A DNA stretch of 64,000 bases from Paludibacteraceae bacterium (GTDB taxonomy: Bacteria; Bacteroidota; Bacteroidia; Bacteroidales; Paludibacteraceae), in NCBI GenBank assembly GCA_024401435.1, contig JAKSLB010000002.1, positions 1 to 64,000 of the forward strand, in the 5' to 3' direction. The notes under the pieces were generated by a model that was not told the DNA's origin, did not search any database, and saw only the letters and a program-made list of their open reading frames with translations. Below are positions 8,161 through 53,119 of the stretch, one piece after another. Position 1 is the first letter of the stretch. Each line of letters begins with the position of its first letter. A program made the translations under genes and the position numbers.

Positions 8161-11100
8161 TTATCGTATTAAAGTAATACTACCTTTATCTTGACCGCTC
8201 TTATGAGTGCCTTTGAAATCACTCTTCCAGTCTACAACATAACCGTAGACTCCGTAAGGAGCAGGTAGGTTGTTGTAGGTTCCGTCCCATTCATCTTCTT
8301 TAGAGAATCCTTCGAACATGATGGTACCTTGTCTGTTGTAGATAACGAAATGCATGTCTGTAATAAATTCGGTTCCTTCGAATTTAAATACATCGTTACG
8401 TTCGTCGTTGTTTGGAGTAAAGGCATTTGGAGCCCAGAACTTCTTCCATACATAGATGGTGGTGTCTTTTGAGTAGACACATCCTGTTTTGTTGATTCTT
8501 ACCATTCCATTGACAACGAATGAGTCAACTCTGGAAGCCACCTCTTTTACATATGTGTATGTAGTGTCCTTACCACTTATGGCATCGTGACCATCACCAG
8601 GTAACCATGACCAAGTAACATCAGTTGTAGGAGATACACCAGATAGTTTGATGGTTGGGTTCTCATCGAAGATAACGATTGGTTCAACATCATATTCAAC
8701 CTCTGCTCGTTTAATCGTATCAACCACTTTTGTGACTGTAGATGTACATCCATTTACGTCTCTACCTGTTACTTCAATCGTTGTCTCTTCGTAAATAGGT
8801 GCATTCAAGTGCGATTCGTTACCAGCAATGTAGAAGTTGTATGGTGTACTACTCCATGAATAGGAGATTGCGTCACCACTTGCATAAAGTGAGGCTTCTG
8901 TATCATCACCTGAACAACCTGTAATGGTGCTTTCGATAATTATTTCAGGTCGTTTGTAAGTGTTGATATTTATTTTTTGTGTAGTAGAACATTCGTTGTC
9001 AGAGATACCTGTTACATAAATTGAGGTAGGTTTGTCAACGTATACAGAAGCTGTCTTACCATATGTTCCTGTACTCCATTCGTATGCCGATGCACCTTCA
9101 ACGAATAAGTTGGCGGTATCACCTACACAAACGATCGTATCACCTAAGATTCTAAGGTTAGGAGCAACATTTACTTTGATGTTTACGTTCATTTTCGCAG
9201 AACATGAAAGTTGTTTACCTATGAGTGTGATAACTGTGTTTCCGATAGGTTTGAATCTGAATTCATTACCATCTACTTGTTTTCCTCCATAGATCCAAGA
9301 GTAGGTGTCTGCTCCTTCACCTTCTAAGAATACACTATCACCAAGACAAACGTGGTCGTCACCTATAACTCTGATTTCTGGAGTTGATTTGTAGTTGATA
9401 CGTTTCATCATTGTGACAGAACATCCGTTTATATCTGTTGCAACAGCATAAACAAATGGAACACCATCAGGGGATAATTTTATTTCCTCGGAGCCTATTG
9501 TGACACCATTGCCAAGATTGGTTGTCTTACCCCATTCGTATGTGGTGTTTTCAGATCCTTCTTGTCCGATAGCTCGAAGGGTAATCGTTTCACCATGACA
9601 GATGGAGTCAGGACCTTGGATTTCGAAAATTGGACGTGGATGGAATACTACAGGAACTGTGGCTTTGGCTTTACATGAATTGATGTCTTCACCAGTAACA
9701 GTATATTCCTTACTGATATTGTTCTTAATGGTGATTTGTTGAGTTCTTTCACCTGAGCTCCATTGATAAGATGAAGCACCTGTAGCGGTTAAGTTAATCT
9801 CTCCATTTTCACATGCAGATGTGGTTCCTAGGATTCTAACGTCTGGTCTTGGTAATACGTTAATAGGAATACTTAATGTGGAAGTACAATTGTTGCTTGT
9901 TCCTTCTACTATGTAAACCATAGGTTTTCTAGGATATTCTGTTATGCTACCAGCTGTAGTTGTTGGATCGTGAGACCATTTATATGTGCTAGCACCGATG
10001 ACATCGATCACAGTCTTCTCACTATCACAAACCTGAGTAGGAGCTCTATAACTTAGTACAGGATATGGATTGCTCTTAATTGTATGACTCTTCTTGGTGA
10101 CACAATTATTAGTGCTTGTAGCCTCTACTTCGAAAGTAGTGTTTTTAGTGATGATAGGCGAAATTGAACTACCAATTGATCCGTTACTCCATACATATTT
10201 AGCAGCATTACCTTTTACGACACTCAAATTAACAGCGCCACCTTCACAAACGGCTGTTGGTCCTTCGATTTCAAATGTTGGAAGAGAGTCGATACGAACG
10301 ATATGCTCTGATGTGTTTTTACATCCATTAATATCTGTACCAGTTACAATGTATGTCTTCGTATCGGTAGGCTTGTCGGTGACAACACTTGCTTTAGAAC
10401 CAGTATTCCATTCGTAGCTGACACCTCCCGTTGCTGCTAAGCGAACGGATGAATTCATACATACAGATGTTGGTCCAGATACCCAGATGTTAGGAAGTTG
10501 AAGAACATTCACTTGGAAGTCTATTGAACTAGCACATCCGAATCTCTCACCAATGACTGTGTAATTGGTCAAGTTTTCAGGTTTGTCTGTAAATGTGAAG
10601 ATGCTAGTGTTAGCGGTGTCTTTGCCCCAAATGTAGGTGTCGGCACCTTGTATGTTAACAGTGATAGAATCTCCGATACAGATTTGCTTAGGAGCATTGT
10701 ATATCAATACTGGATAGTCTACTTTGGTAATCGTATGGTTGTTCGAACCAACACATCCGTAAGCATCTGTTCCTGTTACCACGAAATTCTTAGTTGATGT
10801 GATGGTTGGATAGATGTTTTCTCCCATTTCACCTGAACTCCAGCTGTATTCACTTGCTCCTGAAGCGGTTAAATGTGCCATGTTACCATTACAAACAGAG
10901 TCGTCTCCGGAGATGGTGATTGTTGGTAATGAATGAACAACGATCTCAAATGGATCTGTCTCGAACGAACAATTGTTAGCATCTGTACCTTTAACGGTAT
11001 AGAATACAGAACCAACAGTATTCAAGACTTCGGTCATTTCATTACCGTTGATATGATTACTCCATTCATAACTTTGAGCACCTCCAGCTGTCAATTGAAC

Positions 11101-14100
11101 ACTAGATCCAACGCAGATGTCTCTGTTACCTGAAATCCATACATATGGTTTAGGTAATACATTGACAATGATACGTTCTGTCGTTGTACATCCGTTTCGC
11201 GTTCCATCGACAACGAATGTTTTGCTTGTTGTCATTTCCTTCTCTTCATAGGTGTCACTACGACTATTGTCATGCCATACGTAACTGTCAGCACCGCTAG
11301 CTGTGATTGTCAAATCAGAACCTTCACAAATGGTCTTAGGCGCATTCGTCGTGATAATAGGGTAGTCTTTCTTAACAATTGTTTTTGTTAACGAAGTCTT
11401 ACAGTTCTTGAGGTTTTCACCAATTACTGTGAACGTTGTGTTCTTGTTGATAATTGGATGAATGGTGTCTTTTTGTTCACCTGTGTTCAACCATGTATAG
11501 GTGTTAGCATCACCTTTAACATATAACATAGCTTCGTCACCTTCACAAACTGCATCATCTCCAAAGATGGCAAATGTAGGAAGATCGTTTACTTCCAACG
11601 TGAATTCTTCACTCCAGTTAGAACAGTTATTTCCATCTGTACCATACACTTTGTAAGTCGTGTTTTCTAATGGAGATTCTATTCTTTCTGTTACTGTACG
11701 ATTATCTTGCCATACATAAGAGATACCTCCGTTAGCAGTTAAAACGGATTGGTCAACGCCCTTACATATTTCATTCTTTGAGGCTGAAATCCAGATGTTA
11801 GGTAATGGCATTACTTGAACATCGACTTCAATTGATCCAGGACATTCTCCAATTGTACCAGAGAATATGTAAGTGGTGTCTCTTGATGGTGTATCGGTAA
11901 TGGTTCCATTTAATGTATTACCAAATTCATCGTAATACTTATCAGCACCCGAAAGGGTAATTGTGGCAGGAGTGCCATAACATACATACTCAGGAGCTGT
12001 TGCTACTAGATTTGGTATTGCTAATGCATTAACCGTATGTTCTGCGGAATTTTCACATCCGTTCAAATCGACTACTTGAACTTTGAATGTCTTAGTCTCT
12101 GTTATGTTCGGATTGATTTGGAATCCAGATTCTCCATCGGTCCATGAATAAGACTTAATGATGATAGAGTTGGATAGAGCAGAAAGTTGAACATTCTCAT
12201 TCTTACAAATAGCGTCTTTACCATCAATTCTAATGTCAGGAAGTTCGTTGACAACCACCTCGAATTCTGCGGAGTTTTTACATCCATTGATGTCTTCTCC
12301 GATGACATAATAGTTTGTTGTTTCTGTTGGCTTCACTGTAACATCATCAGTAGTGGCGAAAGTGTCAGTTGCTGTTAAACTTTCTACTTTCCATACATAT
12401 TTTCCTGATTCTCCATATTTAGCATTCAAAATAATGCTGTCATTAATACAGATTTCGTTGTCGGGATCATTCGTTCCGATGATGATAGTAGGCAAAGACC
12501 AAACACCCACTTTGATATCTTTTGTAGAAGTACATTGAATGACTGTTCCATATTCGGTCTTGCCATAGTCGATTGTACCATGGACTGTATAGGTCTTGTC
12601 ATCGGTCAATGTTTCTACCACCTTAGAACCATTTACTATGTTGTATTCGGAATAGATGTCAGAGATGTTGGTTGCATTATCCCAGACAAAACTGTTTGCA
12701 CCAACGACAGAGATTTCAGCCTCTGAACCTTGACAAACGTTTTCTGGTGCAGTTACCTCTAATACAGGGAATGGTTTTGTCTCAATAAGAATTGAATCGA
12801 CATTCTCACATTGATTGATGTCCACACCTCTTACTTTCAAATATTTTTGATTTGTAACGGAGGTGATAATCTCTTCTCCAGTAGTAGAAGTGGACCATGG
12901 TTCACTTAAATCAGAAGCTGTATACCAAGTGTAGTCAAGAGCTGTACCATCCACTTTCTTGGAAATTTCCGAACCATTACAGATGATAGGCTTGCGGTCG
13001 CCTTGAATAACAACAGAAGGTAAAGAATTAACTTTTACAGAGAATGATTGTGTAGAAGAACAATTGTTCTCATCTGTTGCTTTTGCTGTGAATGTGTAAG
13101 TAGATGCACTTTCAGGATCCATTTCGTAAGTTTCACCTGTGAAGTCTTTACCGATCCATTCATATTCGTATTTATTAGAAGGATTCTCAGCTTTAGCTGT
13201 TAATGAAATCGTCTTGTCAATACAAATAGGATTTGCTCCATCAATTGAGAATTCAGGTAAAGCCCAAATGTTGATGGTGATAGGAAGTGGAGTTTCACAA
13301 CCATCTGTTCTTGCAATCACATTGTATGTTTTTTGTGAGAAAAGATTATCAGTTGTTCTGACTACGTTGTTGTCTTTTGTGTCTTCCCATTCCCATTCAT
13401 CGGCATTGTCCAATGTGATGGTGATAGGTTGTCCTTTACATACGTAATCTGTTCCAGTACTTGTCGTATATGTTGGTACTGGGAATTCCTTAACATTAAC
13501 AGAAATCGTGTCGTAAGAGATACAAGTGTTGATATCTGTTGCTTTTACTACGTAAGTAACTGATTTCTCTTCAAGACTAGCAGGGGTTACATTTGGAACT
13601 ATGATAGATGAAGTACCAATGATATCACTCATTCCAAGGATTGACCATTCGAAGTAGTTGGCTGAACCTTTAGCTTCGATAGTAGCTTCTGTTCCACGAC
13701 ATACATCGTCGACTGGATCGATGAATAGAGTAGGATGGTCGTAGATGACGATATCTTTTGTCGCACTATTTTTACAATTGTGCTTGTCTGTACCTGTTAC
13801 TTCATATGTGACAGTACCCGATGCTACAGGAGTGACTGTGACAGCATCCGTTGTTTCGCCTGAAGGATTCTTCCATTCGTACAATCCACTAACGCCATTC
13901 TTAGCTGTTAGGATAACGGCGTCATTCAAACAGATCTCGTTTTTGTTAGCTTCGATTTCAATGTCAGGTAATGACCATACAAAGATGGTAGTATCAATTC
14001 TGCTTGTACATTTACCTACTGTACCTTCTACCCAGATACTTTGTGGATCTTCAATGTTGGTTATCTCTATTTCTGAATAGTGACTGTTGGTTGTACTCCA

Positions 14101-17100
14101 ATTATATGAACAATTGTCAGGACCTGTCATACTGATTGTCTTATCACCACCGAAGCAAACGGTGTCTCCGTTTTCAATCGTCATACTGATAACAGGAAGT
14201 TCGATAATCTCGACAGTGATTTGATCTGATTTTTTACAACCTTCAGTTGACATTCCTGTTACGCTGTAAGTCTTCTCGCTTGTTAGGATTTCAGAGAAAC
14301 GAGAATCAGTCTTAAATCCTGTTCCCCAATCATAGGATAGACCTGTGTTGGATGCTTGGATAACAGCTTCACTACCTTTACATACTGGACCGTTGCTTGA
14401 TAATGAGAAGATAGGATCATTGTATGTGTACACTGTGATGTCTTTAGCACCAGAACATCCGTTCTTGTCGGTACCTTTAACAATGTATGTGGTACGTTCG
14501 CTGATTGGTGCTGTTTCGTAGTCCATACCTTTCCAAAGTGTGTCACTTTCATTTCCACTTAAGAACCAAGAGTAGGTGTTATCAGAAGTACTTGTCGCAC
14601 TTAAGACTGCTGTTGTATTTTTACAAATAGTAGTGTCTTTTGCTGTGATGTTAGGTAACTCTAAGACACCCACTGTAAATTTACCAGAAGTAGAACAGCC
14701 ACCTTCTATAGTTGTGGCAACTACGGTGAAGTCGGTTGTCTTGTTAAGTGTGCGAGTGATGGAAGATTGATCTTCGTTCATCATGCCATTCCACATAAAT
14801 GTGCAAGCTTCTTCTTCACCGCTCTTATTGATAGCTTTCGCTGTAACAGTAACATCTTCACCCTTACAGATGGATGCAGGATTATCTAATTCAAGTTTTA
14901 TATAATCGTATTTCTTAATCTTAATAGCTTGAATGGTACTATCACAACCAAAACTATTGGTTCCTTTTACATTAAAGATAGTATCAGAAGTGATGATAGG
15001 TCTGTATGTTTGGGCTCTCGAAACGGTATCTCCGTGAATGTTGGTCCAAATATAAGACAATGAATTGTTGTCAGCTTCTAAGATTGCAGTCTCATTTTCA
15101 CAATAACCATCTTTGTGGTTGATTGAGAACTTTGGAGTTTCATTAATAGAAATGGTGATTTCATCATTGTTTTTACATCCATTCGCATCAATACCCGAAA
15201 CAGAGAAGTGCTGTTGTGTACTAATGTTCGTGATGCCCATTCTATTGTCTGCAGAGTATTCTATGTCACGATCCCATTTGTAAGAAACACCTCCAGATAC
15301 GACTAATTCAATGTCGGAGTATTTACAAACAGAGAACATTGGTGAATTCTCAATCTTAATATTTGGCAAAGTCCATGTTGAAACAGTGATTGTAGAATTA
15401 GAAACACAACCGTCTACTTCAGCTTCAACATAATAAGATTGATCTCTGTCTAATACTCCGGTGAAACATGTGTCGTTATTGTCGACTAAAATTTCACCAG
15501 ACTCATTGTTTAATCTCCATGTGTATTTAGCCATTGAATTGGTTCCTGCGAGTATTGCAGTGTCACCTTCACAAATATAGTTTGGATATTGTAATGCTAA
15601 AGCTGGATACTCTTTTGTATCAATGTCTACATAATTTTCATTGATACATTTTGTGGCAGGATCCATTGCAGATATGGTGATTCGTTGAGGCTCGTCAATA
15701 GTGTATGAACTATTGAAGAGTGACTGATAACCTTTATCTTTCCAGTTGTAAGATAATGCGTAATTGTCTGCGTAAATGGTAACATCTTGACCCTTACATA
15801 CCTTTTCTTCACTCGTCAAGTTAAATGTTGGTAACGGATTGATTGTGATGGTACGTTGAGCTTCATTCTTACATCCAAATTGGTCTGTAGCAATGACTTT
15901 ATACAACGTGTTTTCTGTAGGACTAGGAGTAATCGTCTGTTCAGTGGAGAATGGAGAACTATTCTCTCCGACAAACCATTCATACTTCGTGAGACCATCT
16001 GTTGCGGAGAGTGTAGCTGCACTTGAAATACAAATTGCTTTGTCACCAGATATTTCAACATATGGTAACTCTCTTGTATAGATGGCGTATGTCTCTGATG
16101 AGGTACATGATACATTTCCGTAAGTGTAAGAAACATTAACGGTATACTTCGTGTTGTTGTTGGTTACTATGTCACGAAGTGTATAAGTTGTACCTAAATT
16201 TCTATTCGCTGCATTAACCCATTGAACAGTGGTGTTTTCAACTGGCATGATGCTGATGGTTGCATAATCACCCTTACATACACTGTCTGTCTTTTGATCC
16301 AATGTGATCGTAGGGTAAGGTTTTGCCTTCACGTAGAATGTGAACGTTGAATCACAAGCATTGTTGTTAATAGCTTTGACAGAAACCTGTACGTCTGTTT
16401 GAATATCTTTCAGTTGAAGTGTCTCACCAGACTTGGTGGTTCCATCAACAGTCCATTCAAAGGCTAAACTTTCAGCTGCATTGTCGCTCTTAGCATAAAG
16501 TTCAGTTTCACCGCCTACACAAACAATAGTGTCGCCAGATATGCTGAATCTTGGTTTAGGATTGACATCGATGGTGATATTGTCTTTATTCACACATCCG
16601 ATATTATCCATACCCCAAACAACAACATCTGTTTTCTTCGTGACATTGCTTAATGTCTTAGAATCGTGGTTGGCTGTATAGTTTTCTTCCTCATCCCATT
16701 TGTAGGATACACCACCCGTTGCGATTAATTGAAGATCTCCATTGTAACATACAGATGTTTGACCACGATCGATCGCAATAGTAGGAAGTGGAGTGTAACT
16801 AATCGTGATGGATTGAGTGCTAGAACAATTGTTGTTAGTACCTTTTACAGTGAATTCTTTCACAGATGTAATAGCATCAGAGATGAATGTGTCTCTGCGG
16901 ACACCTGTCGTATTCCATACATAAGTGGTGACTCCACTTGTAATGGTATCTTTGGCAACGAGTGTGTCTTGCGAATTGTAACATACAATGTCTTTTCCTA
17001 AAATCGTTATTTCAGGATTTGGTTTCCATCCAATTTCAATAGAATCCACTGATGAACATCCATTAACATCTTTTGCGGTAACTGTAAATGTCTTATGACT

Positions 17101-26100: not shown

Positions 26101-29100
26101 ATCGTTTGCAGTTGGTACAAAGGTTGGATTGTCGTGTGTGTTGACTGTGAATAATGCTTCACCATAACAGCCACTTGCATTGCTACCGCTAACTTTGTAT
26201 TCGGTTGTACCATTCACTGTTGGACGATAAGACACACCACCACCAACGGACGATCCGTTTGCGAACCATTGATAGTCATTGTTATCAGCACCACTGGCTG
26301 TTAACGTGAATGTTTTACCTATACAAACACTACCAGTACCATTCTCTGTGTCATTGATTTTTAATGTAGGTTTGTCATTGACTGTAACTTTATACTCGGC
26401 TGAAGATGAACAACTTGTTTCTGTTGATGTAACGGTCACTTTCGCAATGGCAAATTTCTCATTTGCAGCAGGAGTTAAGAATGCTTTGCTTGTCGTAGAA
26501 GATGAATTGTCCCATTGGTATGAAACGTCACTTGCTGAAGTTGTTGCAACCAGTTCGACAGAATCACCTTCACAAATACTATTGATACCTTTAACACTGG
26601 TAACAGTAACCGTTGGTAGTTCTTTTACTTCTATAGAAATTTCTTTCTTTGTCGTACATCCACCATTCGCTTTTATTTCTGCTTCGAAAGTATATGTCTT
26701 GGCAATGTCTAACTTACCTGTGTTATATTCTTTGTGATCATTGAAAGATTGGAAATCTCCACTGTTATTCCATGCAATGGTAACATTGTTTCCTTCTGTA
26801 GATGTCGCTGTGATGAGTACCGAATCTCCACGACAGATAATGGTTTTGTTGGCAGATAGTGTGAGATTAGGCTCGTTTTCTACTTGTATTGTTTTCTCTA
26901 CAGGGTCAGAAACACATCCACTAGCATTCGTTCCAGTTACTTTGTATGTATTGGTTGTACTCCAATCCATATTGGTGATTTGATATGAACTCGTTTTGAC
27001 ACTTGTTGGTTCGTCATTTACGGTCCATGACCATTGATCACTCATCATGTTATCTGTGGAAGATGCTACTAATTCTTCTGCATCACCTTTACAATAGATA
27101 CTTTTTGTGTTAGATAATGAAATGGTTGGTTTCTTAACATAGGTGATTTTTTGTCCCGCTACAGATGTGGCACATCCATTTGCATCTTTTGCTGTAAGGG
27201 TGATGCTGTCTGTTGCTGTAACATTACTAAGAATGTATACATTCGGATCACTGGTACTTGCTGCGATAGTTGCACCATTTTTACTCGTCCAAGTATAATC
27301 AGATTCGCCTCCAATTGGTCTTAGTTCCAATGTTCCGTTTTCGCATATTTCACCTTTACTGTCGATACCGATTGATTCTGTAGGGTGAACGTCTATTTCA
27401 ATGCTTCCGCCAGCTTCACAACCTTCTTCAGTTTTGGCTATAACGTCATAACTTTGTTTGCCTTTGATTCCCGACACGTTGAGAGTGTTGGTGGTTTCAC
27501 TTTGACTAAGCCAGCTCCAAGTTAATGTACTGCTATTTACTTTTGTGTTTGTGTTTTGTGCAGTAATGGTTGTACTACCATCATAACAAACAACTTGAGG
27601 TGCAGCTGTTAATTCAAGGGTTGGCGTCTCTCTTGGTACAACTGTGATTGTATCATAACCTTTACATTCAGATTTATATCCTGTTACGATGAATTTTACT
27701 TCTTTGTTGATTTGAGGTTCTATAGAAGAACATTTAGTACATGCATAATCTTTCTCTTCTCCATCAATGATATAAGTCCACGAATAAGAGTCTCCATTTC
27801 TTGCTTCAATCTTGATAGGAAGACCTTGGCAAATAGCGGTGTCTCCATCTGCAGGTTTGCCTATGATGGCAATTTTTGGAGCCGCAATACCTGTTATGAT
27901 TTTTGATGCATTACCTTTACATCCTTTTGTGTCAAAACCAGTAACGGTATATTCTGTATTTCCACTTTTTACGGAACGAATGGTGTATTTGTCTTGCTTT
28001 TCAGTCTCGTCATCATTCCATTCGTATTTGCCAGACACACCACCTTTAGCTGTCAATTCAAGTGCTGCGCCTTCACATTTAGAGTCTTCTCCTACAATAT
28101 AGATATTAGGTGGAGTTTGTACGGTCAATGGATAAGTTTCCTTGGTGATACAATCGTCCATGTTTGCTAATAATTCAACATTGAATGGAGTAGGGACTTT
28201 GTTCATATCGATATTCGACATGGAGAATTCACTTCCAGTCTGTGTTAAATCCTCACTATTATAGGTGTATGACCATGTATAGGTCGTTGTGCTTGTATTG
28301 ACGGAAGGATCGATTTTAAGATTAAGATCTAATCCGTTACAAACATAGTCTTTGTTGTTTGCGTCATTTTTAATGACAGGGAACTCTTTCGCACGGATAG
28401 TTGTGTTATCGGTGTTGCTTTGACAACCATGATCGTCGGTTGCAACAACATGAAATACTGTTGTTTGAGAAAGAGGAAGTTGGACAGAACTTCCTGTCGC
28501 ATCACCAATTTTAGTTCCTAGTGTATCGTATAAAGTCCAACTGTATTCAGCAATTTTACCTTCGCCAATAGAGGCAGATGCCTTTGCTGTTTCGTTTTTA
28601 CAATATTTGTCTTGCTCTGGAGTGATAGCCACAGTCGGATTGTCATAAATAGTGACTTCTGCTGTGGTTTGTCCGTAACAACTATTGCTTCCTTTCGCTT
28701 TGACGATGTATGTTATATTGCCAGCTATGCTTGATTTTACGTTGATCTTGCTGGCATCGGTAGTTGGATTAACAACATAGGCACTATCTAAAGAGTTCCA
28801 AACTATATTGCCATCTTTTACAACACCCCATTGATATTTTTGACCTGATTGGGCTCCACTGGCAGTAAGTGTGATCGTGTTGTTAGCACAAACTCCTGCT
28901 TCATGACCAGTGATGGCTAAAGCGGCAGATGGTAAAATTGAAACTCCATGTCTAATGGTACTTGAACATTCAACGCTTTTGCTATTTACTACATAGGTCG
29001 CAGTACCTTTCAATGTGTAGTAAGTCATACCAGTTCCAGAAGGACTGTCGTTTAATATGTTCGAGTTTCCTCCGACGATTTGATTATCGTTGTTTCTCCA

Positions 29101-32100
29101 TTCATAATTAGAACTTGAAATGGTTTTTGTAGATGTCATTTCAGCTTCTAATGATAGAGATTCACCTTCACAAATGTTGCTTATATTGGCAATTGTTAAT
29201 ACTGGATTAGGTCTGGTCTTAACTTCAACTTCAGCCGAGTTGGATTGACATAAGTAAGCATCTGTACCCGTTACTTTGTAAGTTTTGGTTGATGGTACGG
29301 TGACAGTGTATACTTTATTTTTCGTTCCGTCGTCCCATACAAATTCTTTTATTTCTCCAGAAGGATCATTTGCAGTTAAAACATCTGTTTCGTTTTCACA
29401 AATCAGTCCTTTTTCGGCTGATGCTGTAATTGTTTTAGGTTTGTGAACATTAATAATGACACTATCCAAACGAGAACAACCCTTATATAATGGCTCTGAA
29501 AATGCTTTTAGATAGTAGATCATAGTACCTTCTTTTGTTGGAGTTCCTGTGTTGAATATGTTGGTTGCACTTTCATGCGCTTCCAATGTCCTGTCAGGAC
29601 CCCAATAATAACTAGTTGCACCAGATGCTTCCAAATCAACATGGTCTCCTAAACAAATGTGACCTGCAATTCGTGCTTTGTCGATAATGGTAACACTCGG
29701 TGCATTTTGAACGTTAATATTTATTTCCTTTTCGGAAGAACAGAGTGCTTCGCCGTGTCTTTCGTATCCCGTTACATAATATGATTTAGTGGTAACATTT
29801 GGATAGTCTGTCATGGAAAGATGGTTGGTTGTGTAGATTGGATTGCTTCCACCGGCCCAAACAGAACATGAATCGGCACCAGTTAATGACAATTGCACCT
29901 GTTCACCTTCACAAATGGTGGTAACGCCATTCACAGAAAGATTTGGTACACTGTGTACCTGAATTGTTTTCGTTATGTTACTAGGACACTCGTTATTGTT
30001 TGTTCCTTGTAGGGCTAAAACATATTCTCCGCTTGTCTTGAATGGGATTGTCACTTGCTTGTTTTGGAAGTTTGTGTTACCAGCCAATGTCCAAACATAT
30101 CTACTATCATTGTCTGCACCATCGGCAGAGAATGAGTAGTCACTACCCACACAAACGTCACTTGGGCCATATATGTTTAGTTTTGGACTCTCTTTTGTGT
30201 AGATTTCTACAGAATCGATATCGAAACAAGTGTTTTCTGATATACATAGAGCATAGTATTTAATAGTGTCATTAATAACAGGTTTGTATGTGTCAGAAGA
30301 AGATAAAGTTGTCGTTTTTCTTTGTTGCACTTTATCCTGGTCTTGCCATTCGAAGAAGCAATCCATGTTACTTGAACCATATAATGTGGCGGAAGAACCT
30401 TCACATATTTCCATGTAGCGAATGAGCTCTCCGTTTTCACCCGTTTTGAATTTCATTCCTTCACCGGTTAATGTGATGGTTGGTTTTTCTTTCACAGTTA
30501 TGTTGTGTTCTCCTTCGTATACGCAAGTACGAAGATTCCCGTTATTGGCATATTCGTCACTTTCTATAGATAAGGTATAGGTGGCAGTTCCGTTAGTCGG
30601 ACTTGCCATGTAAGAGATGGCATCTGCACCATTGAAGATTTCATTTAAAATGTTCCCTTTTTCATCTTTCCAGTAATAACGGAACTCGTTACCATCTTCG
30701 TTTGTGTATTGACCTTTTGATGAAGTCAAATAAGCATTAGTGCTTAATTTTATTTCTGTTTCGTCTCCGTAACATACATAGTCGTTACCTGTAATGTTTA
30801 CATCAGGACGACCTACGACCGTTATTCTTTTCGTTATGGTTTTTCTACAATCGTTTTGAGTGATGATTAATAATTCTATGTCGTATTGTTCTGTACGGCC
30901 CGGCTCACAAGGTAATTGAACGGTAATGTTATCACCTTGGATTTGTACTAATTGTCCTGTTGTCTTGTCTGTGTATGACCAAATACGATTGATGATTGAA
31001 TCAGGTTCAACGCCATCTTTATTATGGTAAATAGGTGTTATGATGGTTTTGTCAGTCAACAATACTTCATTGTAACAAGCAATTTCTGCATCAAAGTCGA
31101 GTATGAAAGGATTCGTGGTCAAACTGAATTCGTCTGTGGTTCTTGTACAATTTGTGTTAGGATAGAGTAGGTTAGGGTCTCCGTCATTGCTACTCATTGT
31201 ACATGTATACTTTGTACCCGAAGTTACTTGGTTTGCTTTGATCTTGGCAATGTTTGGTTGGTCGTTGTCTGGTACTACAATTGGATTTGACCAATTGTAG
31301 TTGACAAATCCTTCAGGTGCTATTAATTCGATATCAGAACCTTCTCCGCAGTTTTTGATAATTACTTCAAATGGTTTTGTTTCTGCTGTGAAATAACCAT
31401 AATTTCTGTGGCGTCCTGCAACATATCTTTGATGGAATTTTGTGTATGTTGTAGTATGTTCATTTGCAGTACAGGTTGGACATTCTGCATGCTTGCAAGT
31501 GTTTCCGTATTCGTCGGTAGAAGTTTTGTAAAAATTGAGTTCGGATTCAGGGAAATAGGTGTTACAACCATCGCATACCCAAATAGGATCAAGACAATCT
31601 CGGTTTTCGATTTCGATAGTGATTTCTTCACCTAAATGTTCTCTTAGATCATATGAGATAGTTGTCCAGTCCTTAATAAATGTTTTTTCCAAATATTCTC
31701 TTGACAAGTAGGCTTGTTGACAGTAGTCGGTACCATGGACATCTTCGTGACCTTCTTCTAAACAGTATCTTGTGATGTTTCTGTCAGAAGTACAGTTGTA
31801 ACATGTGTGAGCTTCTGTTGAAGTTGAAGCATAGTTGGAGTATATTAAAGTGTCTCTCTTGTTGGTTCCATATTCACATTCAGTACAAATGGTCTGTGTC
31901 TCTGTTCTTTGTCTGGTCTCTTTGTGGTCTTTCATGCATTTCGTACCTTCTTTGTAGGCACAAGACTTACATCTGTAATAATTACCATTTGCTTGTTTTA
32001 TAAATTCACAGTTGTTGCCTTCTTCATCTGTGGCCCATTTGTCAAATTGCTCATTGTTGTTGTTGACGTTTTTAAACACGTATTTGTTATTGCCGCCAGG

Positions 32101-33144
32101 TCCTCCCTTTTTTTCGTATTTGTATTCGGCAATTCTGGTTGCTGTTCTGTATTTGTTGCATCTTCCATTTCGGTCCCAGCCTATGCATTCGTTTGTGTTA
32201 TATGTTTCAGTGTACCATTCATTACAATGGTCATAAACGTTAGAATATCTGTCGCATATTGAAACTTCATAATCGACAGTAACGTTTTTTTGAATGCTAT
32301 TTAAACATTTATACGCCTTTTTATCTTCGGAATTTTTGCATTCTTCACAATCCGTATTTGGGTCACATGTGATATGATGCATGTCGTATCCTTGTGCATC
32401 AGGTAAAATTTCCTCACATTTTTTACAAAAGGTTGTTTGACCTGCAATGGCTGTGGTGCTTGCTGGATTCAAACCGTTTTCGTCTGTTATGATACTGGAA
32501 TTACATAATAAGGTTCCATTTCTATCGTATATGCGAACGGCAAAGGGAGGTCTGTCAGTATTCTGATGATTTCCATTGAAACTTGGATCATGAGATAAAA
32601 TGGCATATTTGTAGGTCAACAAAGTGGAATTTTCACCAACAGTAAATGTATATACCATTTTTTCTGCCATTGCTCTTTTCATCCATGCTCCAGATCCTCC
32701 TGTAAGAGCTTTGTTTTCAGCTTCTTCGTTTGAACCCAATCTAACTGAGTAGGTGCTTCCGTCGGGAACTTGCTTTAAGTTATCGCAGGCTACGTTTTTA
32801 TCAATACTGGAAGAACTCATGATCTGAAAATCTCCATAAATAGTACCTGTGATTTGTGCTGTTCTTTCGGACCATTGGTCTGATCTTGCTACAGATATAT
32901 TTGATAAATCGTTTGAAATTACGTATGGTGTTGTATTGGTGATATCCATAAAATCAGACGGACCATAATAACCATAATATCTTGTCCATCCTTCAAACGT
33001 ACCTTTTTCGAAACCAAGGTTTGGCGTGTCGGTATTTACTTTACTGTTTTGCGCATACGAGGACTGCATCCCCATACTAAACAATAGTATGTTTGCCAAT
33101 AGAATAATAGTATGTCGCATTCTAGTTTGTATACGTTTGTTCAT
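8161..33144 (-). CDS. Giant secreted multidomain repeat protein with T9SS type B sorting domain (8,327 residues)
   Basis: One uninterrupted frame encodes an exported protein of roughly 900 kDa. A signal peptide (residues 1-31, cut before Q32) is followed by a beta-rich N-terminal domain (about 40-235, resumed at 489-514 and 576-600) split by cysteine-rich inserts. Then come on the order of 90 Ig/PKD-like domains of 70-90 residues. Each opens with a block such as ICEGESLTLTA, has a central Y.W, and ends with VTGTDxNGC, so two cysteines per domain could form a disulfide. The last 94 residues are a gliding-motility-associated C-terminal domain. This architecture is that of SprB-like adhesins and other T9SS cargo; the ligand is unknown. 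The gene is single, with its own terminator, and the tRNA-Glu gene upstream runs the other way. The C-terminal third shows a three-domain higher-order repeat. Confidence 0.9.
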   Translation of the reverse strand: MNKRIQTRMRHTIILLANILLFSMGMQSSYAQNSKVNTDTPNLGFEKGTFEGWTRYYGYYGPSDFMDITNTTPYVISNDLSNISVARSDQWSERTAQITGTIYGDFQIMSSSSIDKNVACDNLKQVPDGSTYSVRLGSNEEAENKALTGGSGAWMKRAMAEKMVYTFTVGENSTLLTYKYAILSHDPSFNGNHQNTDRPPFAVRIYDRNGTLLCNSSIITDENGLNPASTTAIAGQTTFCKKCEEILPDAQGYDMHHITCDPNTDCEECKNSEDKKAYKCLNSIQKNVTVDYEVSICDRYSNVYDHCNEWYTETYNTNECIGWDRNGRCNKYRTATRIAEYKYEKKGGPGGNNKYVFKNVNNNNEQFDKWATDEEGNNCEFIKQANGNYYRCKSCAYKEGTKCMKDHKETRQRTETQTICTECEYGTNKRDTLIYSNYASTSTEAHTCYNCTSDRNITRYCLEEGHEDVHGTDYCQQAYLSREYLEKTFIKDWTTISYDLREHLGEEITIEIENRDCLDPIWVCDGCNTYFPESELNFYKTSTDEYGNTCKHAECPTCTANEHTTTYTKFHQRYVAGRHRNYGYFTAETKPFEVIIKNCGEGSDIELIAPEGFVNYNWSNPIVVPDNDQPNIAKIKANQVTSGTKYTCTMSSNDGDPNLLYPNTNCTRTTDEFSLTTNPFILDFDAEIACYNEVLLTDKTIITPIYHNKDGVEPDSIINRIWSYTDKTTGQLVQIQGDNITVQLPCEPGRTEQYDIELLIITQNDCRKTITKRITVVGRPDVNITGNDYVCYGDETEIKLSTNAYLTSSKGQYTNEDGNEFRYYWKDEKGNILNEIFNGADAISYMASPTNGTATYTLSIESDEYANNGNLRTCVYEGEHNITVKEKPTITLTGEGMKFKTGENGELIRYMEICEGSSATLYGSSNMDCFFEWQDQDKVQQRKTTTLSSSDTYKPVINDTIKYYALCISENTCFDIDSVEIYTKESPKLNIYGPSDVCVGSDYSFSADGADNDSRYVWTLAGNTNFQNKQVTIPFKTSGEYVLALQGTNNNECPSNITKTIQVHSVPNLSVNGVTTICEGEQVQLSLTGADSCSVWAGGSNPIYTTNHLSMTDYPNVTTKSYYVTGYERHGEALCSSEKEININVQNAPSVTIIDKARIAGHICLGDHVDLEASGATSYYWGPDRTLEAHESATNIFNTGTPTKEGTMIYYLKAFSEPLYKGCSRLDSVIINVHKPKTITASAEKGLICENETDVLTANDPSGEIKEFVWDDGTKNKVYTVTVPSTKTYKVTGTDAYLCQSNSAEVEVKTRPNPVLTIANISNICEGESLSLEAEMTSTKTISSSNYEWRNNDNQIVGGNSNILNDSPSGTGMTYYTLKGTATYVVNSKSVECSSTIRHGVSILPSAALAITGHEAGVCANNTITLTASGAQSGQKYQWGVVKDGNIVWNSLDSAYVVNPTTDASKINVKSSIAGNITYIVKAKGSNSCYGQTTAEVTIYDNPTVAITPEQDKYCKNETAKASASIGEGKIAEYSWTLYDTLGTKIGDATGSSVQLPLSQTTVFHVVATDDHGCQSNTDNTTIRAKEFPVIKNDANNKDYVCNGLDLNLKIDPSVNTSTTTYTWSYTYNSEDLTQTGSEFSMSNIDMNKVPTPFNVELLANMDDCITKETYPLTVQTPPNIYIVGEDSKCEGAALELTAKGGVSGKYEWNDDETEKQDKYTIRSVKSGNTEYTVTGFDTKGCKGNASKIITGIAAPKIAIIGKPADGDTAICQGLPIKIEARNGDSYSWTYIIDGEEKDYACTKCSSIEPQINKEVKFIVTGYKSECKGYDTITVVPRETPTLELTAAPQVVCYDGSTTITAQNTNTKVNSSTLTWSWLSQSETTNTLNVSGIKGKQSYDVIAKTEEGCEAGGSIEIDVHPTESIGIDSKGEICENGTLELRPIGGESDYTWTSKNGATIAASTSDPNVYILSNVTATDSITLTAKDANGCATSVAGQKITYVKKPTISLSNTKSIYCKGDAEELVASSTDNMMSDQWSWTVNDEPTSVKTSSYQITNMDWSTTNTYKVTGTNASGCVSDPVEKTIQVENEPNLTLSANKTIICRGDSVLITATSTEGNNVTIAWNNSGDFQSFNDHKEYNTGKLDIAKTYTFEAEIKANGGCTTKKEISIEVKELPTVTVTSVKGINSICEGDSVELVATTSASDVSYQWDNSSSTTSKAFLTPAANEKFAIAKVTVTSTETSCSSSAEYKVTVNDKPTLKINDTENGTGSVCIGKTFTLTASGADNNDYQWFANGSSVGGGVSYRPTVNGTTEYKVSGSNASGCYGEALFTVNTHDNPTFVPTANDVCKNNVATIEISGTENANYEITWNSNKEELTSDNNGKLSYTTTDVLNSSQNFKIVASKTYEDLTTCTSDAQNLMVTVLELPYIKISADPITKEICQDGSIKLTATGAGVYDASNPTGAGVYTWSASSENAPALVISGDGQSEAEGTATQPGTIKYKVDGFNGACHGTDSITILVHEKPSVSIEGDNQACPGGSVSLKATGASTYLWSDNKTTTKISGETITPTITGNITYWVEGTNEYGCTAKSDEAGHSITVLALPQPSWDEPHVCKNNDITITINGIDRIDWQDGTSETGNTRTFSNVSADKTYNIITYQGECAKDTFLTIKVEDIPVISFDGNDKTCSGDEFTLNATAANSNIQWEWERNGVRESLSETVINMTLTTDKSSEIVKYIATAETNNAYKCTNKDSISVNVFSKPTNSIEGESLICEGNSASIKSKNAFKNYSWIDVKDPAFVLSTVNNPTFSPSETTQYQLTVTDDNGCTTTSNATVSVIGKPDFDFSYTAVCEDEDAVITINSTHADQYNYQWNYNNSTGQSITIPQIKESITLKVTASDKDLESCQTTKEYPISVNKKPVFDIITDATDNTICSNNTINISGSNESYSYNWKYRISGGADNPYSNEPTFSWKGVNTNDVSETYTFTATAKTSDDLGGCESSNSINVIVNPNAIIKVKQDAAACEGNTVHVYVDKGSSTATNYSWLNADSTEIGLHGESNSFYISNETTTIKGLVVGWNSYNCSDTTTYEIVKASKPKIQIDGYEDICSGEKPTNITVTAGGQSINWYEGDTKTTLLGTGTNIPTANLKPFTSDQYITISTSNNGSTTSECTADTTILIHVKPRPSISLTTSKNDVCPDESVTLSASINTYATITKWVEWTDYTTLKDTNVTNTDLSVKKSIDNKYTYGVIADLDGCSDTAKISFNVVPSPTVNIYSDKDNNQICKGDAVQISTDKEYSSFQWYAVQQPADVELPSTNSTYSDTPTETIKYKLVVTNDNNCTGFDTLTIKVNDKPIADITAAPICPNTQAVLAVGGNSTAASYKWPTGDYSESEKQWTSTEKITSRKGFNVTALSANNLCSIDTTIYVDVKKEPSGNILVDGQVTNGATVATCKKELQLEVTGNSSTTIATSSIVWSKKTNSGTTKDEISTGTAQTTDTPESDGSYYVSFQDEISGCSTEIEQKINLYPNMEITIGDDQNICSGKDVTITATTTGASAESFSWSITKSDNSTYNNVTYNDNAKSSITIKNITEELVVSATGTSQYHCGGYKSNEIHITTKNNPEITITSEDHPDLKVCKGESITIKAEGSGTISWEGMSSNPIQLTNLESNITKKVTLNDNGCTTTKLVDVYVNSNPVINITGISGFCNGGTSTLTASESNGTELSYFWQKGESWTANADTISKANTVDVNEAGTYAVKGIDANNCSSTQNFKVNELSKPSITNVTANNSLCIDSTITLTANGAASYTYEWYKTESGINTILGNSKDLDVLATSDEITYYVKAYENNNTPEGVVVCESEPISFLVKGLSAPSWNFQYNEVCEGNLAKISIVNETINNTDYDWTTTETGTEGNTDYQFTIAKSATFSVTGTANGCSFTKDTTINSKSLPIINNIDAPTSVCVNSPIELVVDCSDLNASYEWSPVPSSQTENTATYTPSVSGLFEYTLTVTGENGCQSTKEKSFEVNNLPTITVVGETSYCSGETSNISITSNDDIASIQWYKYDETNTANGYKGDIVGSGDKNFILAETVTGKTDYIVVVNDGTCENSKYPITIQPFEPASILVSGETTICAGSSTKLTIKSSSANSTCFIKIDGNWEQINNDSYTFNPENTTVYELKVEKDGCEYFDNVTIVVVTPPSITINEQINGSANICKGESLTLTASSPSTTDFLWKNSLGSDANISVTPLTTTTYEVVAREGKCTDSTQFTVNVLDKPTIEFTGDEYACVNGSATFGIKNADESSYSYVWEDGNANIERTITLGNTNDTLGITVTDKASGCSIDTFYVVKLEGNPNIQLLTAENVDVTNGNLSACIGSTIENVTITSTTSPLNATTPFEWITINGDSYINESTLSGFTVNSSTKFTARVLSEHGCEATADLTITAMKAPIASITGKTNACNNQDVVLTAKASEGEEPYQYEWSAKSFDGTSFGISDNTQESITATSLQESKKQYTFFVTVTDKNGCSNAQEVSHVITMDTTPKIYLSAEDENICVNKEAKITATGAGDFGSYEWLSETDENLGTGNIIYPTIENTIKIKAIGTTMEGCPGESDFITINKINNPEVTISGNKDICVGDAITVTLSSSNTSDTFEWWSDSETGNYAETQHNASRTLSPEITTTYYFKAYNSNGCVTDSSLTIKVNNLPEVQINGFATGGSSYICLNDSITLQANNGSSDYEYQWSVKNADSKLSYDATNSTLTDIKPSINNVYSVVVKDVNGCINSTDYTVNINALPEIELTGKDAACINDEIQLTVVPKNGNLSAPSYNWGDLNPSKSETSTNVIISKDTTFEITVTDGNECKSTATHFVKMISKPDFTLSTNNDLCEKEIVTINATNNTTETYEFTWPGNGTSSNGGLTWTENFAHEAALVPYDYIVSAKKSGRYENTDYNCYKEDTISVTIHSLPEITISGDGFLCMNSEKPAHLVANGPVGTTYSWQEGETWAEGETPLYTGEEIDVTPTSDTYYIVKGVANAENFGCVNYSAPFQVYRAQTPTFNYPDEYIGICYGDNLKLEANEVANYNLVWSNGAINTKSISLEKIIEDATYSVTASTDECEAIKKFNIVVKENPTIQIIQAPEYVCINDSALIQVTGDENTTITWVQRSENFATGELSIQEKMGAKELFTFKGSKSYSDIVGKTEPTVCYTTVDTIVDIKPLPIVTIEGTNAICYGDTTKLTTNIIGTATSYTYEWRDSTKDVTHENLTGEDLTVSPKSYTSYFVKIKDNFGCTDSSTHIVNVNALPTFNLSSQDKAVCDGTNTKLIADKITLQYNWGTGEFTSKNEYYTPEITKNSHKTFTVTAKDVNGCSSVDSIEIGWKPNPEITILGKDIVCYNSQDTLVAKDTITSGVTTYVWNTTGVRRDTFISDAITSVKEFTVKGTNNNCSSTQSITISYTPLPTIAIDRGQTSVCYNGDLQLIATGGVSYKWDEEENYTANHDSKTLSNVTKKTDVVVWGMDNIGCVNKDNITIDVNPKPRFSISGDTIVCVGGETELYAKSDNAAESLAFEWTVDGTTKSGETLQLKDIQTDVQVSVKAINNNACDSTFTFYVKAKPYPTITLDQKTDSVCKGDYATISIMPVENTTVQWVNAANRNLGTTYTLRDIVTNNNTKYTVNVSYTYGNVSCTSSETYAIYTRELPYVEISGDKAICISSAATLSATDGLTKYEWFVGENSSPFSTEQTITPSPTENTLYKVIATDQFGCKNEAQRTITINPLPTFNLTSEEKVCKGQDVTIYADNYALSYNWKDKGYQSLFNSSYTIDEPQRITISAMDPATKCINENYVDIDTKEYPALALQYPNYICEGDTAILAGTNSMAKYTWRLNNESGEILVDNNDTCFTGVLDRDQSYYVEAEVDGCVSNSTITVSTWTLPNIKIENSPMFSVCKYSDIELVVSGGVSYKWDRDIEYSADNRMGITNISTQQHFSVSGIDANGCKNNDEITISINETPKFSINHKDGYCENETAILEADNNSLSYIWTNIHGDTVSRAQTYRPIITSDTIFNVKGTNSFGCDSTIQAIKIKKYDYIKLELDNPASICKGEDVTVTAKAINKSGEEEACTFMWNGMMNEDQSSITRTLNKTTDFTVVATTIEGGCSTSGKFTVGVLELPNITAKDTTICKNTTAVLSATSTSDNTYSWFLSGNESDTLWKGMDYETAPISERTTYIVKGTDKNGCSGAKDITVYTYNDPIFSLSSNGPVCKGSEAVIQASNTGLSYDWGTGFKTDSRFSEILTSEKTYSVTGMSTEGCKKSDQITVEIIELPVISMTIENGDTVCFGGDKTISMTGPDNCSYNWSTTNSHYSEIEITNIEDPQSIWVEGTVGKCTSRIDTTIFVWSLPDIEIEANKNEICLNDAVILTAKNGVSGLYEWKNPSGETTDAVTVTPVASGTVTYEVTGTDKHNCKNSATKDIVIYDHPTLFIDPVDDVCRGTEATIEAKGSANYFEWSILGMSDIIGTSSIIVPNVTPASLEEKSVTYVVKATDINTCISYDTISVNVKEFPVPTYTTSTGTDYVCKGQPITITLDNADEWEWEDTKDNNVVRTTDNLFSQKTYNVIARTDGCETPLPITINIWALPEFSIDGANPICIDKTISLTAKAENPSNKYEYEWIGKDFTGETYEMDPESASTYTFTAKATDENNCSSTQSFSVKVNSLPSVVIQGDRKPIICNGSEISKKVDGTALDYTWYTASDLSEPWSTSTTGEEIITSVTNQKYLKVRGVDINQCENVDSILIETKPFPVLEVTAPENVCQGSEAEISVVGANSFVWDNATNISDIYSEYNIVNGSKVVETLTDDKTYTVHGTIDYGKTEYGTVIQCTSTKDIKVGVWSLPTIIIGTNDPDNEICINDSIILNAKYGESGKYVWKVESLTATDTFATTDDVTVKPTETTNYYVIGEDINGCKNSAEFEVVVNELPDIRIDGKDAICKNENVQLSALSNSIIIKSYSWTDGESGFQINPNITETKTFKVQVVDLNGCENSAEHTVNALAIPNLVATAPEYVCYGTPATITLSGADKYYDEFGNTLNGTITDTPSRDTTYIFSGTIGECPGSIEVDVQVMPLPNIWISASKNEICKGVDQSVLTANGGISYVWQDNRTVTERIESPLENTTYKVYGTDGNNCSNWSEEFTLEVNDLPTFAIFGDDAVCEGDEAMLYVKGDANTYTWLNTGEQKDTIHPIINKNTTFTVIGENLKNCKTSLTKTIVKKDYPIITTNAPKTICEGSDLTITASGADSYVWHDNSRSDTYEEKEMTTSKTFVVDGTRNGCTTTERIIVNVLPKPYVWISGNRDICVGSSVQLTAGGAQSYEWSNHINGNEMTEVLNTVGSVFYTVKGTDANNCSFETDPFEIVVHSLPTITISGDDSVCNGNMAHLTASGASEYSWSSGEMGENIYPTITSTKNFVVTGTDAYGCVGSNNHTITKVDYPVLIYNAPKQICIGDSITVNIQGADTYIWGKDTANTSIFTFTDKPENLTNYTVIGERFGCASSIDFQVNVLQLPNIWVSGPTSVCMNSSVRLAATGGVSYEWNTGSKASVVTDKPTDTKTYIVTGTDINGCKNTSEHIVRIDSLPTFEIEGPTAVCEGGAVNLSVVKGNAAKYVWSNGSIGSSISPIITKNTTFEVEATSTNNCVTKKSHTIKSNPYPVLSYRAPTQVCDSEKTVIDVIGASTYKWSHDPTTTAGSITEYPRKPMVYIVEGTSNNCTSTLSIPINVLPRPDVRILGTTSACENGEINLTATGASSYQWSSGERTQQITIKNNISKEYTVTGEDINSCKAKATVPVVFHPRPIFEIQGPDSICHGETITLRAIGQEGSENTTYEWGKTTNLGNGVTIGSEEIKLSPDGVPFVYAVATDINGCSVTMMKRINYKSTPEIRVIGDDHVCLGDSVFLEGEGADTYSWIYGGKQVDGNEFRFKPIGNTVITLIGKQLSCSAKMNVNIKVNVAPNLRILGDTIVCVGDTANLFVEGASAYEWSTGTYGKTASVYVDKPTSIYVTGISDNECSTTQKININTYKRPEIIIESTITGCSGDDTEASLYASGDAISYSWSSTPYNFYIAGNESHLNAPIYEETTIEVTGRDVNGCTSTVTKVVDTIKRAEVEYDVEPIVIFDENPTIKLSGVSPTTDVTWSWLPGDGHDAISGKDTTYTYVKEVASRVDSFVVNGMVRINKTGCVYSKDTTIYVWKKFWAPNAFTPNNDERNDVFKFEGTEFITDMHFVIYNRQGTIMFEGFSKEDEWDGTYNNLPAPYGVYGYVVDWKSDFKGTHKSGQDKGSITLIR
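8164..8445 (-). other. Gliding-motility-type C-terminal domain (T9SS type B signal) of the giant protein
   Basis: The last 94 residues include the family blocks WAPNAFTPNNDERNDVF, FVIYNRQGTIMFEGF, EWDGTYNN and PAPYGVYGYVVDW, ending in GSITLIR. This is the TIGR04131-type domain that targets proteins through the T9SS. It is complete. Confidence 0.95.
9640..17030 (-). repeat. Three-domain higher-order repeat within the giant protein
   Basis: Domains repeat as a cycle A-B-C. A begins after a C-to-A linker such as VWSLP or VLQLPNIWVSG. B begins with SLPTFEIEGP-like blocks. C follows a K.(Y/F)P linker (KDYPII, KVDYPVL, SNPYPVL, KPFPVL, KEFPVP, KEYPAL, KPYPTI). The C-type junctions fall near 10058, 10708, 11358, 12015, 12760, 13475, 14190, 14900, 15600, 16315 and 17020, giving a period of about 650-745 bases (217-248 residues, three domains). 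Positions are read by eye and good to some tens of bases. Confidence 0.75.
31420..32436 (-). other. Cysteine-rich inserts in the N-terminal domain of the giant protein
   Basis: Residues of about 237-488 hold 20 cysteines, including pairs C240/C243 (FCKKC), C266/C269 (CEEC), C392/C395 (CKSC), C420/C423 (CTEC) and C448/C451 (CYNC). A second insert (about 515-575) has C524/C527 (VCDGC), C550, and C555/C558 (CPTC). The surrounding sequence (DWTTISYDLREHLGEEITIE, IENRDC, then GRHRNYGYFTAE and FEVIIKNC) reads as one beta-sandwich domain into which both inserts are placed. The pairs resemble zinc-knuckle or rubredoxin-like sites; metal or disulfide use is not known. Confidence 0.75.
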
Positions 33145-52194: not shown

Positions 52195-52360
52195 CGGTGA
52201 AATAAGGGATTCCGACAAATTTAAGTCTGTTATTTCTCGTTTTTTTTCGTTGTCTTAACAAAGAATTAAACCTTTTTGCAAAAAAACGATAAAAACACAA
52301 GAGAAAATCAGGGGTTTGTTATTATCCGTTATGGTATTATTCTTAAAATATCTTCGATTT

Positions 52361-53116
52361 ATGGCATTTACAAACAATTCCTCTAATGTGTTTAGTTCGT
52401 TACCATCTGTTACGAAGCATTTATTGATTATTAATTTGCTTTGTTGGATTGCTCCTGTTGCTCTATCCAAAATTAACATTGATGTTTACGCTTTGTTTAG
52501 TTTGCATTATTGGGGCGCATCTTCTTTCGCTCCGTATCAATTGATAACATATATGTTTTTACATGCGCCATTCCCTAGTTTGTCTCATATTTTCTTTAAT
52601 ATGTTTGCCCTTTTTATGTTTGGACAGGTAATCGAGCGTAGTTGGGGACCTAAATTTTTCATTGTTTTCTATTTCTCGACTGGTATAGGCGCAGGTTTGA
52701 TTCAGGAATTAACATGGATGTATGAGGTGTCACCCGCATTGTCTTATGTGAATCAAGTGATGAATCAACCATTTCCTCTGATTTTTGAGGGCGTGAGGTT
52801 TGATTCTGTTGATCAATTACATGCTTATGTTGATATGCATCTTGGCCTGAGACAAACTGTTGGCGCATCTGGTGCAATCTTTGGATTGTTAACGGCTTTT
52901 GCAATGTTGTTCCCTAATCAACCCATCTATTTTATGTTCATCCCTATTCCGATTAAAGCTAAATATTTTATGATCGTTTATGCTGTGATTGAATTATTAT
53001 TGGGTGTGCATCATACAGGTGATGGTATTGCTCATTTTGCACATCTTGGTGGCGCATTGGTGGGCTTTATACTAGTTTTACTTTGGAAAAAACACAGAAC
53101 TTTTAATCGTTATTAA
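52361..53116 (+). CDS. Rhomboid family intramembrane serine protease
   Basis: The ATG at 52361 gives 251 residues. The protein has six predicted membrane segments, H76 and N80 in HIFFN, the nucleophile S170 in GASGAIFG and the base H228 in HFAHLGG, so the Ser-His dyad is intact. Rhomboids cut transmembrane substrates near the outer face of the inner membrane. A loop of about 45 residues (120-165) between the third segment and the active-site helix is longer than in GlpG. It is followed four bases later by a second rhomboid gene. Substrate unknown. Confidence 0.92.
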   Translation: MAFTNNSSNVFSSLPSVTKHLLIINLLCWIAPVALSKINIDVYALFSLHYWGASSFAPYQLITYMFLHAPFPSLSHIFFNMFALFMFGQVIERSWGPKFFIVFYFSTGIGAGLIQELTWMYEVSPALSYVNQVMNQPFPLIFEGVRFDSVDQLHAYVDMHLGLRQTVGASGAIFGLLTAFAMLFPNQPIYFMFIPIPIKAKYFMIVYAVIELLLGVHHTGDGIAHFAHLGGALVGFILVLLWKKHRTFNRY

Positions 53117-53119
53117 TAT

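Follow-up and report, generated by a model that had tools for sequence, protein, structure and literature searches.

Ninety-one Ig-like domains in a giant T9SS type B surface protein of a Paludibacteraceae bacterium and in its paralog

Introduction

The stretch of DNA analysed here (the window: 64,000 nucleotides, C112:1-64000 of G000, a draft genome of 3.83 Mb in 204 contigs, of a Paludibacteraceae bacterium) carries one very long reading frame, and the question that it raises is what a protein of such a size would do at the surface of its cell and whether its length is of any consequence. Repeat adhesins are usually regarded as length-variable, and in the literature we found nothing on a fixed repeat number of adhesins, nor on giant proteins of this kind in Paludibacteraceae or in the ruminant gut. 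A first-pass annotation, made from the window alone, had seen in this frame a single intact gene for a cargo protein of the type IX secretion system (T9SS), comparable in scale to SprB-like adhesins. Here it is argued that the striking feature of the protein is its domain number, which is exact, paired in a sister gene and triplet-phased.

The gene and the two ends of its product

The frame (8161-33144, minus strand; 8,327 codons) is open from an ATG to one terminal stop, and the window contains no N; the gene for a protein of 8,327 aa, hereafter A, is real, intact and conserved. The 25-kb gene is thus as whole as had been claimed; it is not single, given that the same genome holds a second giant, B, of 8,030 aa (C194:38188-62280). 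To the eye, the N-terminus of A looks like a signal peptide (putatively about aa 1-31, MNKRIQTRMRH...SSYAQ; 33052..33144, minus strand), with a basic start, a hydrophobic core and AYAQ.

Next comes a head of some 730 residues, delimited by alignments (aa 32-758; 30871..33051, minus strand), in which a conserved start (NxDTPNLxFEKGxFEGWTRYYGYYGP) is succeeded by a Cys-rich insertion of variable length (about aa 230-475; 31720..32457, minus strand, also from alignments) and then by a second conserved part (HRxYGYFTAET). The insertion differs greatly between species and is mostly absent in B. The head of the window member matches no Pfam family at E<=1, and a Pfam name taken from other members was set aside, their matches being stray and weak, zinc-finger-like ones included. 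A search with the head returned 16 named loci, 12 of them in metagenome genomes titled Paludibacteraceae or Bacteroidales bacterium, whose records, where they state a source, give ruminant rumen, reticulum, omasum or caecum; the remaining four, from Lacihabitans, Leadbetterella and Flaviaesturariibacter, are distant, with 26-28% identity across roughly the first 200 residues.

At the opposite end lies a type B C-terminal sorting domain (TIGR04131/CHU_C; 8164..8433, minus strand, from profile matches), intact as first annotated: TIGR04131 matches with 52.1 bits when the protein is scanned (cut-off 35) and, at 8164-8433, with 58 bits when the genome is searched, and Pfam CHU_C with 53.4 bits (cut-off 27). 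Of the T9SS core genes whose presence the first-pass annotation had proposed to verify, two were searched for by profile and both were found over cut-off, SprA/Sov at 2373 bits and GldM/PorM at 372 bits, together with nine PorP/SprF proteins over cut-off and 19 matches to TIGR04131, of which 15 are over cut-off; type B cargo has been described as binding PorP/SprF barrels (PMC11205867). The sorting domain and this set of genes bear out the reading of A as T9SS cargo.

The shaft and its three-domain super-repeat

Between head and sorting domain extends a shaft of 91 Ig-like (Ig_7/PKD-like) domains (aa 759-8214; 8503..30870, minus strand), defined by a hidden Markov model (HMM) and Pfam, with a mean spacing of 81.9 residues. 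Pfam, run on A in three overlapping pieces, recognises Ig_7 ("CHU_C associated") in 27 stretches and PKD weakly. Two near-invariant cysteines and one tryptophan mark each domain; in the window protein they are kept in 91, 90 and 89 of the 91 domains, and across all 24 A and B proteins considered below in 2183, 2159 and 2106 of 2184; each domain would probably be pinned by a disulfide.

The array is built as a three-domain super-repeat. Similarity between domains reaches maxima at lags of 3, 6, 9, 12 and 15, in the A and B giants tested as well as in the 121-domain giant of another genus (G018). When each position was left out in turn, its triplet phase was assigned correctly for 86 of 91 on the mean profile of A and B; on the window protein alone the result was 58 of 91, as against a mean of 28.6 and a highest value of 41 in 40 permutations of the labels. 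Phase classes trained on A place 78 of 91 domains of B, and those trained on B place 76 of 91 of A (the extra N-terminal domain of the G002 copy of A, mentioned below, having been taken out before these tests). Two further genera follow these classes as well, with 79 domains of 121 and 35 of 53 placed correctly and the register unchanged if counted from the C-terminus; a third, G034, is without phase (18 of 66 on itself, permuted mean 21.9; 27 of 66 with the A/B classes). Both 91 and 121 are a multiple of three plus one, which, being two values only, may be chance.

A pair of paralogs with one domain count

The C-terminal 579 residues of A were searched against 61 genomes, and among the matches listed there were hits in 58 and, within the genus, numerous frames of more than 7,800 codons. 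Both paralogs, A being the type of the window, are whole in 12 of the 16 genomes of the genus that were examined, and the counts that follow rest on these 12, selected for having both genes whole; left out were G003, G008 and G012, with no giant frame among the matches listed, and G014, whose fragment of 61 domains lies near a contig end and contains unknown residues. The 24 proteins measure 7,875-8,449 aa (A) and 7,792-8,400 aa (B), and they represent three clades and two paralogs rather than independent cases. The two genes stand in tandem in nine of the 12 genomes and apart in three (G000, G002 and G004). Identity in an alignment of 19 giants is 28-36% between A and B and 31-67% between orthologues. 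In the window genome, B has an OmpA-family gene and a PorP/SprF gene directly upstream and a MutS2-like gene downstream; among the three main clades this MutS2-like neighbour is 66-68% identical, and the orthologous giants 31-43%.

An HMM that was started from a single domain of the window protein and extended over the pooled giants counts 91 domains in all 24 proteins, the G002 copy of A scoring an additional 92nd at its N-terminal end. A separate HMM, built only from the 121-domain giant of the other genus, gives 89-92 (E<=0.01) or 90-92 (E<=0.1) in 16 A and B proteins. At this constant number, the length covered by the array ranges between 7,167 and 7,673 residues (23 proteins, the G002 copy of A excluded).

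Between the window protein and its closest relative, the G004 copy (65% identical, 8,339 aa), each of the 91 domains has its reciprocal best hit on the diagonal. Towards A of the other two clades, 23-35 of 30-38 reciprocal best hits fall on it, and towards B only 4-19 of 19-28; single domains are therefore poor witnesses against distant giants, and scores were averaged over sequences (seven A and eight B proteins). Averaged in this way, A against B scores 1.37 at offset 0, and no other offset up to 12 exceeds 1.07. Offset 0 is the best in ten of ten nine-domain blocks, and the same holds when clades are compared inside A or inside B. For single domains in the averaged matrices, the best match lies on the diagonal in only 43-55%. 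On averaged scores, no net gain or loss of domains is visible since before A and B separated. The presence of the same count in every complete relative examined and in the sister gene suggests that length matters.

Beyond the genus, an insertion site that would relate the 91-domain array to the 121-domain array of G018 is not claimed: a global alignment of the two necessarily imposes the total shift of +30, and the inner breakpoints move with the gap cost. Domain counts for the giants of G034 and G020 vary with model and threshold and were not relied upon.

Relatives among grappling hooks and other giants

Judged by profile scores, the closest solved relative of the shaft is GhpA, grappling hook protein A, from Aureispira sp. 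CCB-QB1 (PDB 9flp and seven further entries). It scores 1863 bits with a profile compiled from 21 stretches of A, each six domains long, the next PDB entries reaching at most 83 bits, and the match extends from about residue 1141 to 5754, with the C-terminal domain in addition. Of three long stretches of A, the two that were searched, both outside its middle third, match GhpA at 227 and 290 bits, the latter stretch also matching the C-terminal domain of GhpA; a six-domain stretch alone finds nothing in the PDB at E<=1. This is homology at the level of the domain family, and the PDB may simply contain no other long protein of this type. Four successive six-domain matches start 243, 250 and 253 residues apart, that is, about three domains, and later ones break step; in the seven readable domains of GhpA, the triplet phases are not followed.

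According to the published accounts, GhpA is a T9SS-secreted chain of 5,898 residues that spans the whole filament and assembles into a homoheptamer (PMC13319060, PMC11205867 citing Lien et al. 2024). The likeness to A consists of a single giant chain, a C-terminal domain matching the type B sorting domain and a long shaft of homologous Ig-like domains, the N-terminal region of GhpA, of about 1,140 residues, remaining unmatched. The differences are that the matched shaft of GhpA would hold some 55 domains, as estimated by spacing, against 91 here; that the heads are unrelated by sequence (two head profiles, A3 and A1, give no match to GhpA at E<=1 and E<=10, respectively); that the heptamer of one protein has a pair of paralogs as its counterpart here; and that a marine predator is compared with gut Bacteroidales.

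A second hook, GhlA of Litorilinea aerophila, is described as a giant chain of 49 Ig-like beads spanning a hooked fibre of about 180 nm, with a stem that is probably three-stranded (PMC13319060); it resembles A in this layout and differs from it in being made of DUF11 domains, in its reported lack of a signal peptide and in belonging to the Chloroflexota (PMC13319060). A more remote parallel is offered by Giant1-5 of Apilactobacillus kunkeei, consecutive genes for surface proteins of 3,000-8,000 aa that are reported to be kept among related species, with beta-solenoid heads (Giant1-4) and helical rods (Giant1-3), in lactic acid bacteria (PMC12863079).

A proposed fibre of fixed length, or a possibly frozen count

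The reading that we favour, tentatively and at somewhat less than even chances, is that A forms part of a multi-chain fibre of fixed length that would work like the stem of a grappling hook, and that the number 91 has been kept for packing in register. The 91 domains, if pinned by disulfides as proposed above, would make a stem of about 0.3 micrometre (91 times some 3.7 nm, scaled from GhlA) with the head at its tip. By analogy with GhpA, the stem would be built, and most likely would work, with several full-length chains side by side; since every chain in stems of the GhpA and GhlA type spans the full length, the chains should match in length, and this would be the simplest selective reason for equal and fixed counts in A and B. 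A and its sister would then be partners of equal length or interchangeable strands, and lateral packing in three-domain units would call for an equal domain number and for chains in register; the retention of 91 by both paralogs, in every genome in which the two could be read, would thereby be accounted for. Such a fibre might tether the cell to a partner, to prey or to plant fibre in the gut.

A more specific form of this proposal, in which A and B co-assemble as equal strands with their triplets in register and 91, thirty triplets and one, is a built-in ruler, appears to us doubtful, if worth stating for what would follow from it. It would be a bacterial counterpart of the giant ruler proteins and the first hetero-oligomeric appendage of the grappling-hook kind, to our knowledge without precedent, in gut bacteria not known as predators. 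Independently of this, the exact domain number kept in paralogs only 28-36% identical makes selection on fibre length directly testable, and relatives of the Aureispira hook stem are now placed in uncultured bacteria of the ruminant gut, where attachment to plant fibre and to cells is important.

A serious rival to a fibre of fixed length is that the array has simply been frozen: A would be a single-chain T9SS adhesin, its domains too unlike to recombine, and 91 would have been inherited from before the duplication into A and B, its length never having been under selection. This we consider a realistic alternative, itself short of an even chance. The identity of the window domains to their best internal match is indeed low (mean 35%, maximum 47%), the gene is without tandem DNA repeats, and the 121-domain giant of G018 is internally more alike. 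A comparison within the genus is provided by a second family of giants, with 26-39 domains in 13 genomes by its own HMM (the count is model-dependent, and the HMM of the giants gives 16-23 at E<=0.01); its member in the window genome is a type B protein of 4,579 aa if read from its first start codon (G000:C1:154891-168627), with a PorP/SprF gene directly downstream. In three of the four members checked, its repeats are up to 94-100% like their nearest neighbour, against at most 47% in the window protein, although these near-identical neighbours may include overlapping matches. Because its repeats are far more alike, and alike repeats change in number more easily, this family is an imperfect contrast for the fixed count, and neutral freezing therefore stays a strong rival.

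Against it stand three observations: (i) no change of a whole domain is seen despite an A/B identity of 28-36%, while the span of the array varied over 7,167-7,673 residues; (ii) the sequence has drifted fast, as the 31-43% of the orthologous giants against the 66-68% of the MutS2-like neighbour indicates, with the count unchanged; and (iii) in one member of the control family, that of G013, the domains are also unlike (at most 31%) and number 26, the other twelve scoring 30-39, although unlike domains are easier to miss.

Improbable readings: predation, gliding and an assembly artefact

A further rival is a true predatory hook: A would be an orthologue of GhpA and would catch prey by their flagella before killing by type VI secretion. 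The homology of shaft and sorting domain to GhpA speaks for it, but we hold it to be improbable, as the head is without sequence similarity to that of GhpA and no hook has been seen; TssD and TssC of the type VI system had no match in the genome either, a result of little weight when the control genomes are silent too.

The comparison with SprB made in the first-pass annotation survives in part, for size and secretion route, and fails for the repeats themselves. SprB of Flavobacterium johnsoniae is, like A, a giant type B T9SS cargo, of 6,497 aa (PMC9870892; type B, PMC12635249), and the existence of a mobile adhesin of this type, pulled over the cell by the T9SS motor, could be argued from the sorting domain and great length of A, from the PorP/SprF and OmpA-family genes directly upstream of B, from GldM/PorM, and from a GldJ-like protein elsewhere in the genome. 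However, the profile search along the protein, carried out as the first-pass annotation had proposed, found no SprB repeat in A (PF13573, none at E<=0.1 with Pfam), and the GldJ-like protein reaches 393 bits, below the cut-off of 458 (in two of 14 control genomes the model likewise scores below its cut-off). In F. johnsoniae, a Cys-x-Cys tail of SprF is reported to be required for gliding (PMC12635249), and none of the nine PorP/SprF proteins of the window genome has Cys-x-Cys in its last 60 residues. A search of the whole genome for SprB was empty, as it was in the control genomes. Membership of the SprB family was rejected on the missing repeats and the missing Cys-x-Cys carrier, and a gliding adhesin is accordingly very improbable.

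That the gene is an artefact of assembly, or a chimera of repeats, has virtually no chance and was rejected: it is true that it comes from a draft of 204 contigs, but misassembly is unlikely because Tandem Repeats Finder (score >=50) finds no array inside the gene, the domains are at most 47% alike, and 24 full-length frames with the same architecture and domain count occur in 12 genomes, the domains pairing one to one with those of G004.

The neighbourhood and other observations

On one side, A is bordered by genes for a PP-loop enzyme of the tRNA-modification kind, RecA and a GTPase, and on the other by a tRNA-Glu gene, an M28-type peptidase and a capsule or O-antigen cluster. The absence of a link to gliding genes, already stated in the first-pass annotation, agrees with this, no sprC, sprD, sprF or other gliding gene being found among the window neighbours named by Pfam (RecA, GTPase, PP-loop enzyme, capsule-type). 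There is no PorP/SprF gene among the neighbours of A; B has one directly upstream. Such adjacency to type B cargo is common and not defining.

In three other genera, giants of 10,533, 9,016 and 6,028 aa (G018:C12, G034:C18 and G020:C81; L035-L040) have directly after them a gene that by eye is PorP/SprF-like and ends in CPVVYW or CPIIYW; in the window genome, such a carrier (C150:139749) comes instead after a frame of 1,549 codons.

Elsewhere in the window, two rhomboid-protease genes lie in tandem at 52316-53992, and two large proteins with GH8-like and DUF11 matches follow one another at 55997-59248 and from 59466 to G000:C112:67883, a TIGR04131 match lying at C112:67620-67874, at the end of the second of these frames; DUF11 is also the domain of the hook stem of GhlA. 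The end of the contig, at 4-1548, is dense in short repeats, with a 169-bp tandem at 22-381, a 23-bp array at 1071-1169 and an 18-bp unit (CGAAATGCTTTCGCCCTC) paired at three places, in part with a palindromic look by eye.
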